The notes under the pieces are model-generated. The model made no database searches. It worked only from the letters and a program-made list of their open reading frames with translations, and was not told the DNA's origin. The position numbers were made by a program, and so were the translations under genes. This document shows positions 2,718 through 10,011 of a stretch of 64,000 bases of DNA, piece by piece. This DNA comes from Planobispora longispora (GTDB taxonomy: Bacteria; Actinomycetota; Actinomycetes; Streptosporangiales; Streptosporangiaceae), in the NCBI RefSeq assembly GCF_016863135.1, contig NZ_BOOH01000048.1:1-64000 (forward strand), written 5' to 3'. Position 1 is the first letter of the stretch. Each line of letters starts with the position of its first letter.

Positions 2718-5204
2718 CTAGGGGACGATGTTGACCAGCTTCGGCGCGCGGACGATGACCTTGCGCGGCTCGCCGGACAGGAAGCCCTGGACCTTCTCCG
2801 AGGCCAGCGCCAGGGCCTTCAGGTCGGCCTCGGAGATGTCCGGGGAGACCTCCAGCCGGTCGCGGACCTTCCCTGCGACCTGCACGACGCAGGTGACGGC
2901 GTCCTCGACCAGCAGGGCGGGCTCGGCGACCGGCCAGCCGGCCGTGGCGACCGAGGCGGAGCGGCCCAGGCGCTCCCAGCCCTCCTCCGCGGTGTACGGC
3001 GCGACCAGCGACAGCATGACGGCCAGGGTCTCGGCGGCCTCGCGGACCGCCGGGTCGGCGGCGCCGGGGCCGGAGTCGATGGCCTTGCGGGCCGCGCTGG
3101 TCAGCTCCATCATGCGCGCCACCGCGACGTTGAACCGGTGGCCCTCGACCAGCTTGGTCACCTCGTCGACGGTCTTGTGGACCGTCTTGCGCAGGCTCAG
3201 GTCACCGGCGGCGAAGTCCGCCCCGGGGGCGGAGGCGGCCCCGGCCTCCACCATGACGCGGAAGGCACGGGCCAGGAACTTCTGCGAGGCGGCGGGCGAG
3301 ACGTCGGCCCAGTCGATGTCGTCCTCGGGCGGGCCGGCGAAGATCATGGTCAGCCGGACGGCGTCCACGCCGAAGGCGTCGATCTGCTGGCCCAGGTCCA
3401 CACCGTTGCCCAGGGACTTGGACATCGCCTTGCCCTGGTTGATGACCTGGCCCTGGTTCAGCAGCCGGGCGAAGGGCTCGGTGAAGTCGACCATGCCCAT
3501 GTCGTGCAGGACCTTGGTGAAGAACCGGGAGTACAGCAGGTGCAGGATGGCATGCTCGACACCGCCGACGTACTGGTCGATCGGGCCCCACTGGCGGACC
3601 TTCTCGACGTCGAACGGGCCGTCCTCGTAGTCGGGGTCGACGTAGCGCAGGTAGTACCACGAGGAGTCGACGAAGGTGTCCATGGTGTCGGTGTCGCGCC
3701 TGGCGGCTCCGCCGCACTTGGGACACTCCACGCTCACCCAGTCCTCGGCCGAGGCCAGCGGGGAGACGCCCTTGGGCGCCAGGGCCTCGCCGCGCAGGTC
3801 GGGCAGGGCGACCGGCAGCCGCTCGTCCGGGACGGGGACCTCACCGCAGTCGGGGCAGTGGATGATCGGGATCGGGCAGCCCCAGAAGCGCTGGCGGGAC
3901 AGCAGCCAGTCGCGCAGCCGGTAGTTGACCGCCGCCTTGCCGGTGCCCCGCTCGCCCAGGATCTCGATGATCTTCCGGATCGCGGCGGCCTTGTCCAGAC
4001 CGTCCAGCGGGCCGGAGTTGACCAGGGCGCCGTCGCCGGGGGTCGCCACGCCGGTCTCGCCCGGGTCGGCCAGGCCGGTGTGCACCACGACCCGGACCGG
4101 CAGGTCGAAGGCGCGGGCGAAGTCCAGGTCGCGCTGGTCGTGCGCGGGTACGGCCATGATGGCGCCGTGCCCGTAGTCGGACAGCACGTAGTCGGCCGCC
4201 CAGACCGGCATGCGCTCGCCGTTGACCGGGTTGACGGCGTACCGGCCCAGGAAGACGCCGGTCTTCTCCTTCTCGGTGGACAGCCGGTCGATGTCCGACA
4301 GCTTGGCCACCTCGGCACGATAGGCCTCGAAGGCCGCCCGCTGCCCGTCGGAGACGATCTCGGCGGCCAGCGGGGCGTCCGGGGCGACCACGAAGAAGGT
4401 CGCGCCGTACAGCGTGTCGGGGCGGGTGGTGTAGACCGTGACCGGCTCGTCGCGGCCCTCGATCACGAAGTCGACGTCGGCGCCCTCCGAGCGGCCGATC
4501 CAGTTGCGCTGCATGCTCAGCACGCGCTCCGGCCAGCCGCCTTCCAGCTGGACCATGTCGTCCAGCAGCCGGTCGGCGTATTCAGTGATCTTGAAGTACC
4601 ACTGGGTCAGCTCACGGCGGACCACCTCGGCCCCGCAGCGCTCGCACCGGCCGCCGACGACCTGCTCGTTGGCCAGCACCGTCTGGTCGTTGGGGCACCA
4701 GTTGACCAGACCGCCCTTGCGGTAGGCCAGGCCGCGCTCGAAGAAGCGCAGGAACAGCCACTGGGTCCAGCGGTAGTACTCCGGGTCGCTGGTGTGCAGG
4801 CGGGTGGACCAGTCGAAGGAGACGCCGTACCGCTTGAAGGAGGCGGCCTGGGTCTCGATGTTGGCGTAGGTCCACTCGGCCGGGTGGGCGTTGCGCTTGA
4901 TCGCGGCGTTCTCGGCCGGCAGGCCGAAGGAGTCCCAGCCGACCGGGTGCAGGACGTTGTAGCCCTTCTGCACCCAGTAACGCGCCACGACGTCGCCGAT
5001 GCCGAACGCCTCGGCGTGCCCCATGTGCAGGTCGCCCGAGGGATAGGAGAACATGTCGAGCATGTAGCGCTTCTCGCGGGTGTCGGCGGGGTCGCCCGCG
5101 GCCCGGAAGGGGTCCAGCTCCTCCCACCGGCGTACCCACTTGGCCTGCAGCGCCTGCGGGTCGTAGTGCTGCTCGTCGCTCTGCATGTCGGCTCGCTCGC
5201 TCAC
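2718..5204 (-). CDS. leuS: Leucyl-tRNA synthetase
   Basis: An 828-residue class I aminoacyl-tRNA synthetase that charges tRNA-Leu. The HIGH motif is HMGH (residues 60-63, in [12 protein letters not shown]). Zinc-type Cys pairs are seen in [13 protein letters not shown] and [15 protein letters not shown]. The CP1 editing domain has the [14 protein letters not shown] threonine-rich motif, and the C-terminal half has the [11 protein letters not shown] tRNA-LeuRS block. The KMSKS loop reads AMSKS (593-597): the first Lys is Ala, while the second, catalytically more important Lys is kept. The length is shorter than the ~960 residues I recall for the main LeuRS of Streptomyces or Mycobacterium. The GTG start at 5204 has GAGGGAAG upstream. 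Expression is probably controlled by the leader attenuator at 5261-5359. Confidence 0.97.
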
Positions 5205-5260
5205 GTTTTCTTCCCTCGGTGTCCGTCCGCACAGATGATCTGGATCATCCGACCCAATAG

Positions 5261-5285
5261 AAAAACCCTCCGCTCAGGCGAAGGG
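5261..5285 (-). terminator. Attenuator terminator in the leuS leader
   Basis: On the minus strand CCCTTCGC (5285-5278) pairs over a CTGA loop with GCGGAGGG (5273-5266), giving an 8-bp stem with one G-U pair, followed by five T (5265-5261). It stands 57 bases before the leuS start and after the leader peptide stop. It is therefore inside the leuS transcript and would end transcription before the gene. Confidence 0.8.
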
Positions 5286-5287
5286 CA

Positions 5288-5330
5288 GCCGCACCGGTGG
5301 GGCGTCTAGCGCCGGGAAGGCCGGTGCGGC
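5288..5330 (-). promoter_or_regulatory. leuS leader hairpin (pause or anti-terminator control)
   Basis: A perfect 10-bp inverted repeat, GCCGCACCGG (5330-5321) with CCGGTGCGGC (5297-5288), encloses the leader stop codon. Its first arm starts 6 bases after the third Leu codon, where a stalled ribosome would cover it. Its second arm ends 2 bases before the terminator stem. An alternative pairing between CGCTAG around the leader stop and the CTGAGCG of the terminator is possible. Which form is the anti-terminator needs folding and probing. Confidence 0.55.
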
Positions 5331-5359
5331 CCGGTAAGCAGCAGGGTCGCGGCACGCAT
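5306..5359 (-). CDS. leuS leader peptide with three consecutive Leu codons
   Basis: A short open frame on the minus strand starts at ATG 5359 and ends at TAG 5306. It encodes MRAATLLLTGPHRPSRR (17 residues), with Leu codons CTG CTG CTT at 5344-5336. A TAGGCT -10 box (5371-5366) ends 6 bases before the ATG, so the mRNA probably starts at the A of the start codon (leaderless). The peptide is followed by a control hairpin and an intrinsic terminator, the layout of a classical ribosome-mediated attenuator. Leucine attenuators were predicted upstream of leuS in some Streptomyces in comparative work, which supports this reading. No protein evidence is visible. Confidence 0.75.
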   Translation of the reverse strand: MRAATLLLTGPHRPSRR

Positions 5360-5750
5360 ATGCAAAGCCTATCGCAGTCCGCAACGCTTTTCATGAACGC
5401 CGGACGCGGCCGGTACGGGGACGGCCCGGCCGAATCCGGGACGCCGGAGCCGGAGGGTCGGCACAATGGTGGGACGTCACGTGCGGAACGGCCGGCGCCC
5501 CGGGCCGGTAGATCCGCTGTGACCTCGACCGTCCCTCCCGTTTACCCTTTTCACCGTGGCACACTCAGCAGCGCCGGGGCAGGGCCCTGATCCCGGGGAG
5601 ACGGGCCTGCCGATGCAGGATCCTCCGACCGATCCCACTGGACTTCAGTTCAGGGGGGCGTTCTCCCGTTTCCCTGCCGATCCCCCCGCCTCACATGAGA
5701 GCATGCCGAATACTCCCAATTCGGGCACCCATACGAGAGGTAAGGAACCC
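5360..5750. other. Intergenic region between leuS leader and the proline-rich membrane protein
   Basis: About 390 bases with no convincing gene. On the minus side it holds the leuS leader promoter. On the plus side TACCCT (5543-5548) lies 7 bases before an in-frame GTG at 5556, so transcription may begin near 5555 and leave a ~195-base 5' leader before the likely start at 5751. Codons between 5556 and 5750 have a clearly lower third-position GC than the gene body, which argues that this part is untranslated. I found no known riboswitch fold in it. Confidence 0.5.
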
Positions 5751-7381: not shown

Positions 7382-7414
7382 GACGGGCCGGGAGCGGCGC
7401 TCCGCCGGCCCGTC
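7382..7414. terminator. Bidirectional terminator between convergent genes
   Basis: GACGGGCCGG (7382-7391) pairs with CCGGCCCGTC (7405-7414), with an inner GCG/CGC stem. It lies between the stop of the proline-rich membrane protein and that of the first P450, overlapping the P450 stop codon by two bases. Confidence 0.65.
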
Positions 7415-8687
7415 AGAAGCGGCACTCCATGTGCTTGATGCCGTTGATGAAGCTGGAGTAGAGCCGCTCGGGGCTGCCGCCCTCGATCTGGGGCACGCGG
7501 CGCAGCAGCTCGCGGAACATCACCGTGATCTCGCGGCGGGCCAGGTGGGCGCCCAGGCAGAAGTGCGGGCCGGGGCCGCCGAAGCCCACGTGCGGGCCCT
7601 CGGTGCGCAGGATGTCGAAGCGGAGCGGGTCGGTGAAGACCGCCTCGTCCCGGTTCGCCGACCAGTAGTAGAGGACGACCTTCTCGCCCTCGCGGTAGAG
7701 GGTGCCGTTCATCTCGTGGTCGCGGGTGAGCTTGCGCCGCATGAAGTTCACCGGGGCGGCCAGCCGGACGATCTCCTCGACCGCGCCCGGGGCGTGGCCG
7801 TCGATGTCGGAGAGCCAGAGCGCGCGCTGGTCGGGGTTGCGGGTCAGCAGGCGCAGGCCGTACGAGATGGCGTTGCGGGTGGTCTCGTTGCCGGCCACCA
7901 CCAGCAGGATGAAGAACGAGCCCAGCTCCTGGGCGGTGAGGTTCTCCCCGTCGATGTTGGCGTTGACCAGGGACGAGGTGAGGTCGTCGGTGGGGTGCTC
8001 GGCGCGGTGGGCGGCGAGGTCCTGGACGAGCTGGTTGAGCTCCAGGCCGGCGGTCAGCAACCTCTCGGCGATCTTGGTCATGTCGTCGCCGCCGTACTCG
8101 GGGTCGAAGCCGCCGAGGATGATGTTCGACCGGTCGAAGACGAAGCCGTAGTCCTTCTCCGGGATGCCCATCATGTCGCAGATGATCTTCAAGGGCAGCC
8201 GGGCGGCGACCTCGGCGACGAAGTCGCAGCCCGGCCCCTTGGCGAGAAGGTCGTCGACGATCTTCGAGGCCGCCGCGTCGACGTCGGCCTCGAACTGTTT
8301 GATCATCTTCGGGGTGAACGCCCGGGAGACGATCCGGCGCAGCCGCGCGTGCCGGGGGTCGTCCATGTTGATCATCGAGCCGAAGTACTCGGTGAACTCC
8401 GGCGGCATGTCCGGGATGTTGGTGGCGCCGCCGTCCCCGGAGCAGAAGACCTCCGGGTGCCGGCTGGCCTCCAGGATGTCGGCGTGCCGGACCAGCGCGT
8501 GGTAGCCCGGCCCCGGCGGGGCGAAGTCGATCTCCGGCTCCCGGTAGAAGACCGGGCGCTCCAGGCCCCGCAGGAGCTGGAAGGCGTGCTCCCGCTCGCG
8601 CATGGGCCTGGCCCAGAAGTCGTAGTCCGACAGGTCGAAGTCGGCGACGGAGACGATCGGCCTCCGCTCGGCTGGCGTCACGCTCAT
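7413..8687 (-). CDS. Cytochrome P450, CYP125/CYP124-like (copy 1)
   Basis: A 424-residue soluble bacterial P450. The I-helix motif is AGNETTRN, the K-helix ExxR lies in EEIVRL...MRR, and the heme loop HVGFGGPGPHFCLGAHLARRE carries the thiolate ligand Cys377. The block MDDPRHARLRRIVSRAFTPKMI and the AGNETTRN I-helix resemble the CYP125/CYP124 clan that oxidises terminal methyl groups of sterols and branched lipids. The start at 8687 (MSVTPAERRP) is preferred to a TTG further upstream: AAAGGA lies 8 bases before it. The next gene on the strand is a close paralogue (8734-9996). An external ferredoxin and reductase are needed; neither is encoded nearby. The substrate is inferred from family resemblance only. 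Confidence 0.9.
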   Translation of the reverse strand: MSVTPAERRPIVSVADFDLSDYDFWARPMREREHAFQLLRGLERPVFYREPEIDFAPPGPGYHALVRHADILEASRHPEVFCSGDGGATNIPDMPPEFTEYFGSMINMDDPRHARLRRIVSRAFTPKMIKQFEADVDAAASKIVDDLLAKGPGCDFVAEVAARLPLKIICDMMGIPEKDYGFVFDRSNIILGGFDPEYGGDDMTKIAERLLTAGLELNQLVQDLAAHRAEHPTDDLTSSLVNANIDGENLTAQELGSFFILLVVAGNETTRNAISYGLRLLTRNPDQRALWLSDIDGHAPGAVEEIVRLAAPVNFMRRKLTRDHEMNGTLYREGEKVVLYYWSANRDEAVFTDPLRFDILRTEGPHVGFGGPGPHFCLGAHLARREITVMFRELLRRVPQIEGGSPERLYSSFINGIKHMECRF

Positions 8688-8724
8688 GACATCGATCCTT
8701 TGCGGAAGCAACCACTTACGTCAA
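8688..8724 (-). promoter_or_regulatory. Promoter and candidate operator of P450 copy 1
   Basis: On the minus strand TTGACG (8724-8719), an 18-base spacer and AAGGAT (8700-8695) end 7 bases before the ATG. The plus-strand text CACTTACGTCAA (8713-8724) is identical, in the same place, upstream of the third P450 (12365-12376). This suggests a shared regulator. Confidence 0.5.
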
Positions 8725-8733
8725 TGGGATGAT

Positions 8734-9996
8734 TCAGAACTCGCAGGTCAGATGCTTGATACCGTTGATGAAGCTGGAGCGCAGGCGGTCGGGCTCGCCG
8801 ACGGAGCGGATCTGCGGGAGCCGGGTGAACAGCTCGCGGAACATCACGGCGATCTCGCGGCGGGCCAGGTGGGCGCCCAGGCAGAAGTGCGGGCCGGGGC
8901 CGCCGAAGCCCACGTGCGGGCCCTCGGTGCGCAGGATGTCGAAGCGGTAGGGGTCGGTGAAGACGTCCTCGTCCCGGTTGGCGGCCCAGTAGAAGAGCAG
9001 CACCTTGTCACCCTCGCGGTAGAGGGTGCCGTTCATCTCGTGGTCGCGGGTGACCGTACGGCGCATCCACGCGACCGGCGAGGCCAGCCGGACGATCTCC
9101 TCGACCGCCCCGCCGATGCGGCCCTCGAAGTCCGACAGCAGCAGCTCCCGCTGGTCCGGGTTCTCGGTGAACAGGTGCAGGCCGTGGGAGATGGCGTTGC
9201 GGGTGGTCTCGTTGCCGGCCACCACCAGCAGGATGAAGAACGAGCCCAGCTCCTGCATCGTCAGCTTCTCGCCGTCGATGTTGGCCCTGGTCAGCGCGGC
9301 GATGAGGGTGTCGTCGGCCAGGGTGTCCGAACCGGCCAGGGAGGTGACCAGGTCCTGAAGGCGCTGACCGGCGCCCAGCAGCAGTTCGGCGGCCTTGCTG
9401 ACGTCCTCGATGAACTCCGGGTCGCCGCCGGAGAGGATGACGTTCGAGGCGTCGAAGACCGTCCGGTAGTGCTCCTCGGGGATGCCCATCATGTCGCAGA
9501 TGATCTTCAGGGGCAGCCGGGCGGCGACCTCGGCGACGAAGTCCCCGCCCGGCCCCCTGGCGATGAGGTCGTCGACGATGCGGGTGGCCTCGGTCTGGAC
9601 GTCGTCCTCGAACTGTTTGATCATCTTCGGGGTGAACGCCCGGGAGACGATCCGGCGCAGCCGCGCGTGGCGGGGGTCGTCCATGTTGATCATCGAGCCG
9701 AAGTACTCGTTGAACTCGACCGGCAGGTCCTGGACGCTCGTCGCGCTCCGGCCCGAGCAGAAGACCTCGGGGTTCCGGCTGGCCTCGACGATGTCGGCGT
9801 GCCGGACCAGCGCGCGGTAACCGGGGCCCGGCGGGGCGAAGGGGACCTCCGGCTCGGCGAAGTGGACCGGCCCCGGCTGCGCGCGGAGCACGGCGAAGGC
9901 CGCCTCCCGCTCGGCCATCGGCCGCTCCCAGAACGTGATGTCGGACAGGTCGATCTCCGACAGCGGGATCTGCAGTCCGGGCTCCGAAACCGTCAC
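8734..9996 (-). CDS. Cytochrome P450, CYP125/CYP124-like (copy 2)
   Basis: A 420-residue P450 very similar to its downstream neighbour. It shares EYFGSMINMDDPRHARLRRI, AFTPKMIKQFE, LPLKIICDMMGIPE, AGNETTRNAISHG and the heme loop FGGPGPHFCLGAHLA (Cys372). A 97-base stretch around the heme loop (8851-8947) is identical to 7527-7623 in copy 1. The two genes therefore arose by tandem duplication, perhaps with later gene conversion. The GTG at 9996 has GGAGG five bases upstream; an ATG at 10008 is the alternative. The I-helix and heme-loop signatures are intact, so both copies are likely functional; differences in the N-terminal 100 residues may set substrate choice. Confidence 0.9.
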   Translation of the reverse strand: MTVSEPGLQIPLSEIDLSDITFWERPMAEREAAFAVLRAQPGPVHFAEPEVPFAPPGPGYRALVRHADIVEASRNPEVFCSGRSATSVQDLPVEFNEYFGSMINMDDPRHARLRRIVSRAFTPKMIKQFEDDVQTEATRIVDDLIARGPGGDFVAEVAARLPLKIICDMMGIPEEHYRTVFDASNVILSGGDPEFIEDVSKAAELLLGAGQRLQDLVTSLAGSDTLADDTLIAALTRANIDGEKLTMQELGSFFILLVVAGNETTRNAISHGLHLFTENPDQRELLLSDFEGRIGGAVEEIVRLASPVAWMRRTVTRDHEMNGTLYREGDKVLLFYWAANRDEDVFTDPYRFDILRTEGPHVGFGGPGPHFCLGAHLARREIAVMFRELFTRLPQIRSVGEPDRLRSSFINGIKHLTCEF

Positions 9997-10011
9997 GCCA
10001 GCCTCCATTAG

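Follow-up and report, generated by a model that had tools for sequence, protein, structure and literature searches.

The window, that is, the whole 64-kb stretch of Planobispora longispora DNA analysed here, carries on its minus strand leuS (2718..5204), which encodes a leucine--tRNA ligase of 828 aa read from a GTG at 5204 and scoring 931 bits against TIGR00396 (cutoff 548). The LeuS N-terminus finds its nearest named relatives in Streptosporangium minutum (92%) and Planobispora siamensis (89%), and a gaggga at 5212..5217 is, by inspection, the likely Shine-Dalgarno sequence of the gene. Upstream of leuS, on the same strand, lie the parts of a leader. Inspection together with conservation in the family defines the -10 box TAGGCT (TAnnnT, 5371-5366) of a leader promoter and, after six bases, the ATG (5359) of leuL, a 17-codon ORF (MRAATLLLTGPHRPSRR, 5306..5359) that ends in a TAG (5308-5306) and contains the putative regulatory codons CTG CTG CTT (5344-5336). 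Two hairpins follow. P1, the proposed antiterminator, was delimited by folding and covariation (5287..5331, arms 5331-5321 and 5297-5287); its core is a perfect 10-bp stem, GCCGCACCGG (5330-5321) with CCGGTGCGGC (5297-5288), extended to 11 bp by a closing G-U pair. T, delimited by folding, covariation and spacing, abuts P1 and forms the stem of an intrinsic terminator (5265..5286, arms GCCCTTCGC at 5286-5278 and GCGGAGGGT at 5273-5265) whose U-tract, TTTTT, occupies 5261-5265, 56 bases from the leuS GTG. The initial annotation had read this same succession from -10 box to leuS, and every part lies where it had been placed; the first hairpin arm is indeed near the Leu codons, at a distance of 5 nt to the 10-bp stem (4 nt counting the G-U pair) and not the six bases given there.

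The leader region has one match in its own draft genome (8.84 Mb, 120 contigs), and the full architecture occurs once in the window, searched on both strands, at the leuS leader. Rfam riboregulators, the T-box included, gave no match above the gathering score in the window and in nine loci. Elsewhere on the minus strand, two adjacent ORFs (7413-8711 and 8734-10008) resemble each other and may be cytochromes P450, given a segment, FGGPGPHFCLGAHLARRE, similar to the heme loop of that family.

Analysis of related genomes places the leader in a wider context. A LeuS match is present in 154 of 160 family genomes, and 149 of these contributed an upstream region to the comparison, 30 in the form of loci and 119 as separately retrieved stretches. 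A rule asking for a TAnnnT box, 5-7 nt and then a short ORF with a Leu run is satisfied in 101/149 regions. The complete series of -10 box, leader ORF, P1 and T, in order, is found in 97/149, against 0 in 20 x 149 dinucleotide shuffles (0-2 per round for the ORF part alone), in support of the earlier reading of this stretch as a leucine leader-peptide and terminator control region. Among the 48 regions without a leader ORF by this rule, L233 is truncated at 216 nt and L162 has a leader in which Leu is encoded just once; some of the genera concerned keep the -10 box with a changed start codon, P1 or T. Judged by the rule, these 48/149 regions indicate that the leader ORF is dispensable in some lineages. 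In genus g23 (L112, L113, L115, L119, L134) the start codon is lost, a terminator-like hairpin is kept and P1 is altered; in genus g65 (L132, L137, L138, L152, L153) the start codon is likewise lost and only remnants persist. A genus without the leader start (G025, G079, G105, G125, G143), taken as a natural test of P1 against T, retains the terminator sequence with an altered P1 and mixed folds.

Beyond the family, a covariance model of the leader element (R1) was run on 394 genomes of the class and matches 225 of them at E <= 0.01, matches at other genes included. Of 57 genomes outside the family with a listed LeuS, at least 19, spread over 11 other families, have an R1 match directly 5' of leuS (coordinates compared by eye, among the matches listed). 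One genome, G351, has two leuS-like Leu-run leaders on separate contigs, L308 (G351:C30) and L325 (G351:C5), the frame 3' of the L325 leader being only 79 codons long.

Both hairpins show covariation, in support of the initial annotation. P1 and T were parsed in 98 of the 101 leaders, leaving L176, L185 and L103; in the last, an extensive insertion in the loop of P1 brings its span to 121 nt, yet P1 and T remain adjoining (L321). The alignment was built without L103, L185, L168, L160, L164 and L126, removed by hand, and without L105, which did not match the terminator pattern; a k-mer filter then reduced 94 sequences to 55 non-redundant ones. Across these 55 sequences, the 11 pairs of P1 and 6 of T are standard pairs in 94.7% of cells, and 12 of the 17 change on both sides. 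Cells with two-sided changes number 75, compared with 27.4 after shuffling, and none of 500 shuffles reaches 75; sliding the partners by 1-3 columns lowers the paired cells to 38.9-57.9%. On this comparative evidence, the element upstream of leuS is real and not a product of chance.

The -10 box and the leader ATG are 6 nt apart in 95/101 leaders and 7 nt apart in 6/101 (allowed range 5-7), and when the allowed spacing is widened to 2-15 nt, 83 of 101 box-start pairs (90 loci) still fall at 6 nt. None of the 101 leaders has a Shine-Dalgarno-like 4-mer 5-14 nt before its start. A -35 element does not rise above background, the mean best match being 2.69 of 6 against 2.60 in shuffled sequence. 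A TGCGNTA (window 5371-5377; alignment A1 columns 2-8), upstream of and running into the -10 box, is conserved in most of the 55 leaders, the box sitting within a conserved TGCGNTAnnnT. In Streptomyces lividans, the transcriptome gives a mean distance of 6.3 nt from -10 box to transcription start, and leuL2, the leader of leuS in strain TK24, is reported as leaderless from RNA-seq (PMC8079986). Because of the 6-nt spacing, the missing Shine-Dalgarno sequence and this leaderless orthologue, leaderless transcription of the P. longispora leader ORF is very likely, as initially annotated; we infer that its start site is the A of the leader ATG (5359), the position expected from the sequence. Codon 2 is Arg in 94/101 leaders, spread over five synonymous codons, and this preservation suggests that the leader ORF is translated.

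Of the 101 leaders, 86 end their Leu run with CTT, 15 with CTC and none with CTG; among the 84 leaders with three Leu codons, 81 begin the run with CTG. In six ORFs of the window, CTG accounts for 188 of 263 Leu codons and CTT for 7, in line with the earlier remark that CTT is rare here. The codon preference may tune either the sensor or the RNA.

In the geometry parse, which searched for P1 2-8 nt past the Leu run and allowed a P1-T gap of 0-6 nt, P1 begins 4 nt after the last Leu codon in 65 leaders, 5 nt in 22, 3 nt in 8, 2 nt in 2 and 6 nt in 1 (n=98), that is, at 4-5 nt in 87/98. The P1 span itself varies from 27 to 74 nt, and the position of the stop codon relative to the first base of P1 ranges from 3 nt ahead of it to 24 nt beyond it (n=98), a ribosome on the stop reaching T in 0/98. 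The gap from P1 to T is 0 nt in 91, 1 nt in 4 and 2 nt in 3 of 98, or 1-2 nt in 92/98 when the stems are trimmed to their first G-C pairs. With gaps of up to 20 nt allowed and neither promoter nor ORF required, the gap is 0-2 nt in 97/104 real sequences compared with 13/70 mononucleotide shuffles.

Folds were computed with a ribosome occluding the RNA; its edge was assumed to fall 12 nt beyond the start of the codon in the A site, and everything behind the edge was kept unpaired. With the first Leu codon in the A site, outer P1 forms with a mean probability of 0.94, which drops to 0.70 at the second Leu codon and to 0.00 both at the third and at the stop; inner P1 still reaches 0.80 at the third Leu codon but is 0.00 at the stop. 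For T, the corresponding value is 0.95-0.96 in the ribosome states and 0.91 without a ribosome. In these models, ribosome position governs the folding of P1 and not that of T. Since P1 starts 4-5 nt past the Leu codons, it would be able to fold with a ribosome stalled at the first of them but not with one at the stop; a stall at the last Leu codon abolishes outer P1 (0.00), which counts against the proposed gating of P1. Since T folds in every modelled ribosome state, equilibrium folding alone yields no switch.

The initial annotation had found all the parts of a classical attenuator here, and that judgement was not supported, given the lack of a conserved helix with the T 5' arm and a T predicted to fold at any ribosome position. 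Besides P1 and T, a column-pair scan of the 55-sequence alignment returned a single other complementarity of comparable length, between the Leu run and the T 3' arm; the scan found no conserved helix pairing with the T 5' arm and, among these 55 relatives, no conserved 2:3 antiterminator of the trp type. P1 can be extended into T by 1 bp in 31/98 and by 2 bp in 6/98, so that P1 and T do not generally share bases; general strand sharing by extension of P1 into T was rejected on these counts.

The order, conservation, covariation, spacing and abutment of the leader parts are supported at the level of sequence, and we consider it probable that they make up an attenuator in which a ribosome on a leaderless leader ORF controls transcription of leuS, with P1 as antiterminator. 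Transcription would start at the A of the leader ATG, where a 70S ribosome would load. With ample Leu-tRNA, the ribosome would pass the Leu codons and reach the stop, where it would cover the P1 5' arm or sit between the arms; P1 would be blocked, T would fold and transcription would terminate. When charged Leu-tRNA runs short, the ribosome would stall at the first Leu codon with its leading edge ending right before P1, P1 would fold and RNA polymerase would read through into leuS. Starvation would thus permit P1 and plenty forbid it, because a ribosome stalled at the first Leu codon leaves P1 uncovered, whereas one that has arrived at the stop keeps it from forming. As starvation should raise leuS, P1 must on this reading oppose T, and leuS is most likely turned up when charged leucine tRNA is scarce. 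Because P1 and T have no bases in common in most relatives, P1 may act on T through abutment: a stable 11-bp stem whose base lies 0-2 nt from the base of the terminator may hinder closure of T. The conserved abutment suggests that this hindrance is steric. The stalling, the sign of the response and the action of P1 on T are inferred.

A classical trp-type attenuator, in which P1 would be the protector (1:2) and a 2:3 antiterminator made of the P1 3' arm and the T 5' arm would form on stalling, appears unlikely. The leader ORF, two hairpins and U-tract do stand in order, and the 2005 paper treats the leuS elements of Streptomyces as classical and assigns them an antiterminator and a terminator hairpin (PMC1262725), but the 2:3 helix is not conserved and the reach of P1 into T is confined to the one or two base pairs given above. 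Furthermore, P1 is unfit as a protector because a ribosome at the first Leu codon leaves it intact in the folds, and loss of leader translation should silence the essential leuS, yet lineages without the leader start exist.

It is also improbable that the leader ORF and terminator are real while the main route of control is another one, be it termination that depends on Rho or NusG, coupling or pausing, or regulation at the level of leuS translation, with P1 just insulating or pausing. The folds, which revealed no thermodynamic switch, would agree with such a route, as would the Streptomyces coelicolor ilvB leader, whose regulation, as cited in PMC1262725, is unaffected by codon substitutions and so counts against a codon-driven mechanism. 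The mycobacterial ilvB1 leader, however, requires its codons, Ala substitution of the regulatory codons having abolished induction (PMC13236596), and the spacing from Leu codons to P1 stays near-constant whatever the position of the stop, which points to a ribosome-gated P1.

Less probable still is an antiterminator formed by the Leu run (GCUYCUU) and the T 3' arm (GAGGGGC) and prevented by a ribosome on the Leu codons. Taken one by one, alignment columns 38-44 can pair with columns 118-124 in 84-100% of the 55 rows, and such a pairing would fit the avoidance of CTG at the last Leu codon (0/101). As the main switch it was rejected: it has the wrong sign for a synthetase gene, since starvation would terminate, and by eye two of its columns are broken in the window sequence. 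It also includes several G-U pairs, complementarity would arise anyway between Leu codons rich in pyrimidines and an arm rich in G, and T keeps its mean probability of 0.91 when the leader is included in a ribosome-free fold. Finally, a functionless short ORF with hairpins, arisen by chance or left as a relic, would suit the 48/149 relatives in which the leader is absent by rule, but is hardly credible in view of the covariation, the empty shuffles and the occurrence of the element in other families of the class.

The reading as an attenuator with an abutting P1 antiterminator draws support from the like gating proposed for the mycobacterial ilvB1 leader (PMC13236596) and from the presence of the same tandem before two other genes. 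R1 finds the P1-T tandem upstream of citramalate synthase (cimA), including that of the P. longispora genome itself (G000:C42:81605-81720, L304), and upstream of acetolactate synthase (ilvB), where leaders such as MRFGILVLH occur. The assignments rest on TIGR00977, above cutoff in both cimA loci tested (L316 and L304), and on NF005860, above cutoff in both ilvB loci tested (L329 and L320); for the remaining loci, the gene was judged from the appearance of the N-terminal sequence downstream. The cimA-type loci (L304, L316-L319, L322-L324, L326, L331-L333) have a leader ORF with Ile codons, for example MFYGLLIIGRRAG and MPSQVLIIVRRAG, then P1 and an abutting terminator; in L304 the distance from box to ATG is longer. 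The ilvB-type loci (L320, L327-L330) have LVL or ILVL codons and an end-to-end P1 and terminator; ilvB leaders as such are already known, and the zero gap is the point of interest. With gaps of 0-5 nt allowed, 15 of the 12 cimA and 5 ilvB loci taken together have a P1-T gap of 0 nt and the other 2 a gap of 1 nt. Because the hairpin sequences differ among the gene classes, the abutment is, as judged from these sequences, more than the inheritance of one hairpin sequence; the leaders may still have a common origin. The leuA leader of the window genome (G000:C33, L305) reads MLRGLLLLSCRGEGL and resembles S. lividans LeuL1; the parse found no P1-T tandem in it. Tentatively, these loci could represent a distinct actinobacterial attenuator of branched-chain genes (leuS, cimA, ilvB), with a separate antiterminator hairpin that shares no bases with the terminator and abuts it at zero gap, acting by a steric block at the RNA polymerase exit channel instead of by competing pairs; we regard this broader proposal as possible but doubtful.

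In the literature searched, leuS attenuators of this phylum had rested on a prediction in two Streptomyces species and one transcriptome map. Nothing on leuS was found in the text consulted on termination in Streptomyces (PMC8914203, PMC8269248) or on leader genes (PMC4833913). As a kind, leuS leader attenuators are thus already known from the Streptomyces prediction and leuL2, and the window element adds to them. The alignment of 55 relatives gives them covariation support and a near-constant ruler between codons and hairpin, and the citramalate synthase (Ile) leader is added to the leaders described. No earlier description of a cimA (Ile) leader, or of antitermination by an abutting hairpin, was found in the open-access literature searched. 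Antitermination by an abutting hairpin with no strand exchange is a testable claim; if true, it would be an added mechanism in a textbook system and might bear on the unexpected behaviour of codon mutants in one Streptomyces leader.

In the Escherichia coli trp attenuator, the position of the ribosome on the leader peptide decides termination, the 2:3 and 3:4 helices have a strand in common, and arm 1 carries the control codons. In contrast, the hairpins of the window type share no strand in most relatives and the codons lie 5' of both: P1 starts 2-6 nt past the last Leu codon in 98/98 leaders (search bounds 2-8), outside the first-hairpin 5' arm, and the one conserved complementarity that shares a strand with the terminator, Leu run with T 3' arm, has the wrong sign for a mutually exclusive antiterminator. 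The EutV/ANTAR dual hairpin resembles the window element in that an upstream hairpin not overlapping the terminator loop matters, and a linker longer by 20 nt abolished antitermination there; it differs in being a protein-bound RNA with a second hairpin and with neither leader peptide nor ribosome (PMC8934654). The LEU element of leuA likewise has an ORF with a Leu run, but its published description is that of a pseudoknot in which one stem involves the Shine-Dalgarno sequence (PMC1262725); as it has no intrinsic terminator, that of the leuS leader speaks against this identity. Closer, by description, is the proposal for mycobacterial ilvB1NC, where a stall at branched-chain codons allows an antiterminator and a ribosome at the stop masks it, whereas the gene and the codons are others and the structures are proposed as 'mutually exclusive' (PMC13236596). 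The leuS attenuators predicted in 2005 in S. coelicolor and Streptomyces avermitilis (Seliverstov 2005, PMC1262725) share the leader ORF and the antiterminator and terminator hairpins; they are described as classical, whereas, comparing by description, the 55 relatives aligned here lack an alternative pairing of the right kind. The nearest counterpart is leuL2 of S. lividans TK24, in which, as in the window leader, an ORF with three Leu codons (reported leaderless in S. lividans, probably so in the window) stands with a hairpin and a U-stretch before leuS, the leuL2 peptide MRAVRLLLSEPR having 12 codons in place of 17 (PMC8079986). The window has the same signature, with a Leu-run ORF directly 5' of leuS followed by a hairpin and an intrinsic terminator with a U-tract. 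One locus retrieved here, L307, encodes the exact leuL2 peptide MRAVRLLLSEPR upstream of a protein, cut by the locus end, whose best match is TIGR00396, and its P1 and T layout is, by eye, the same.
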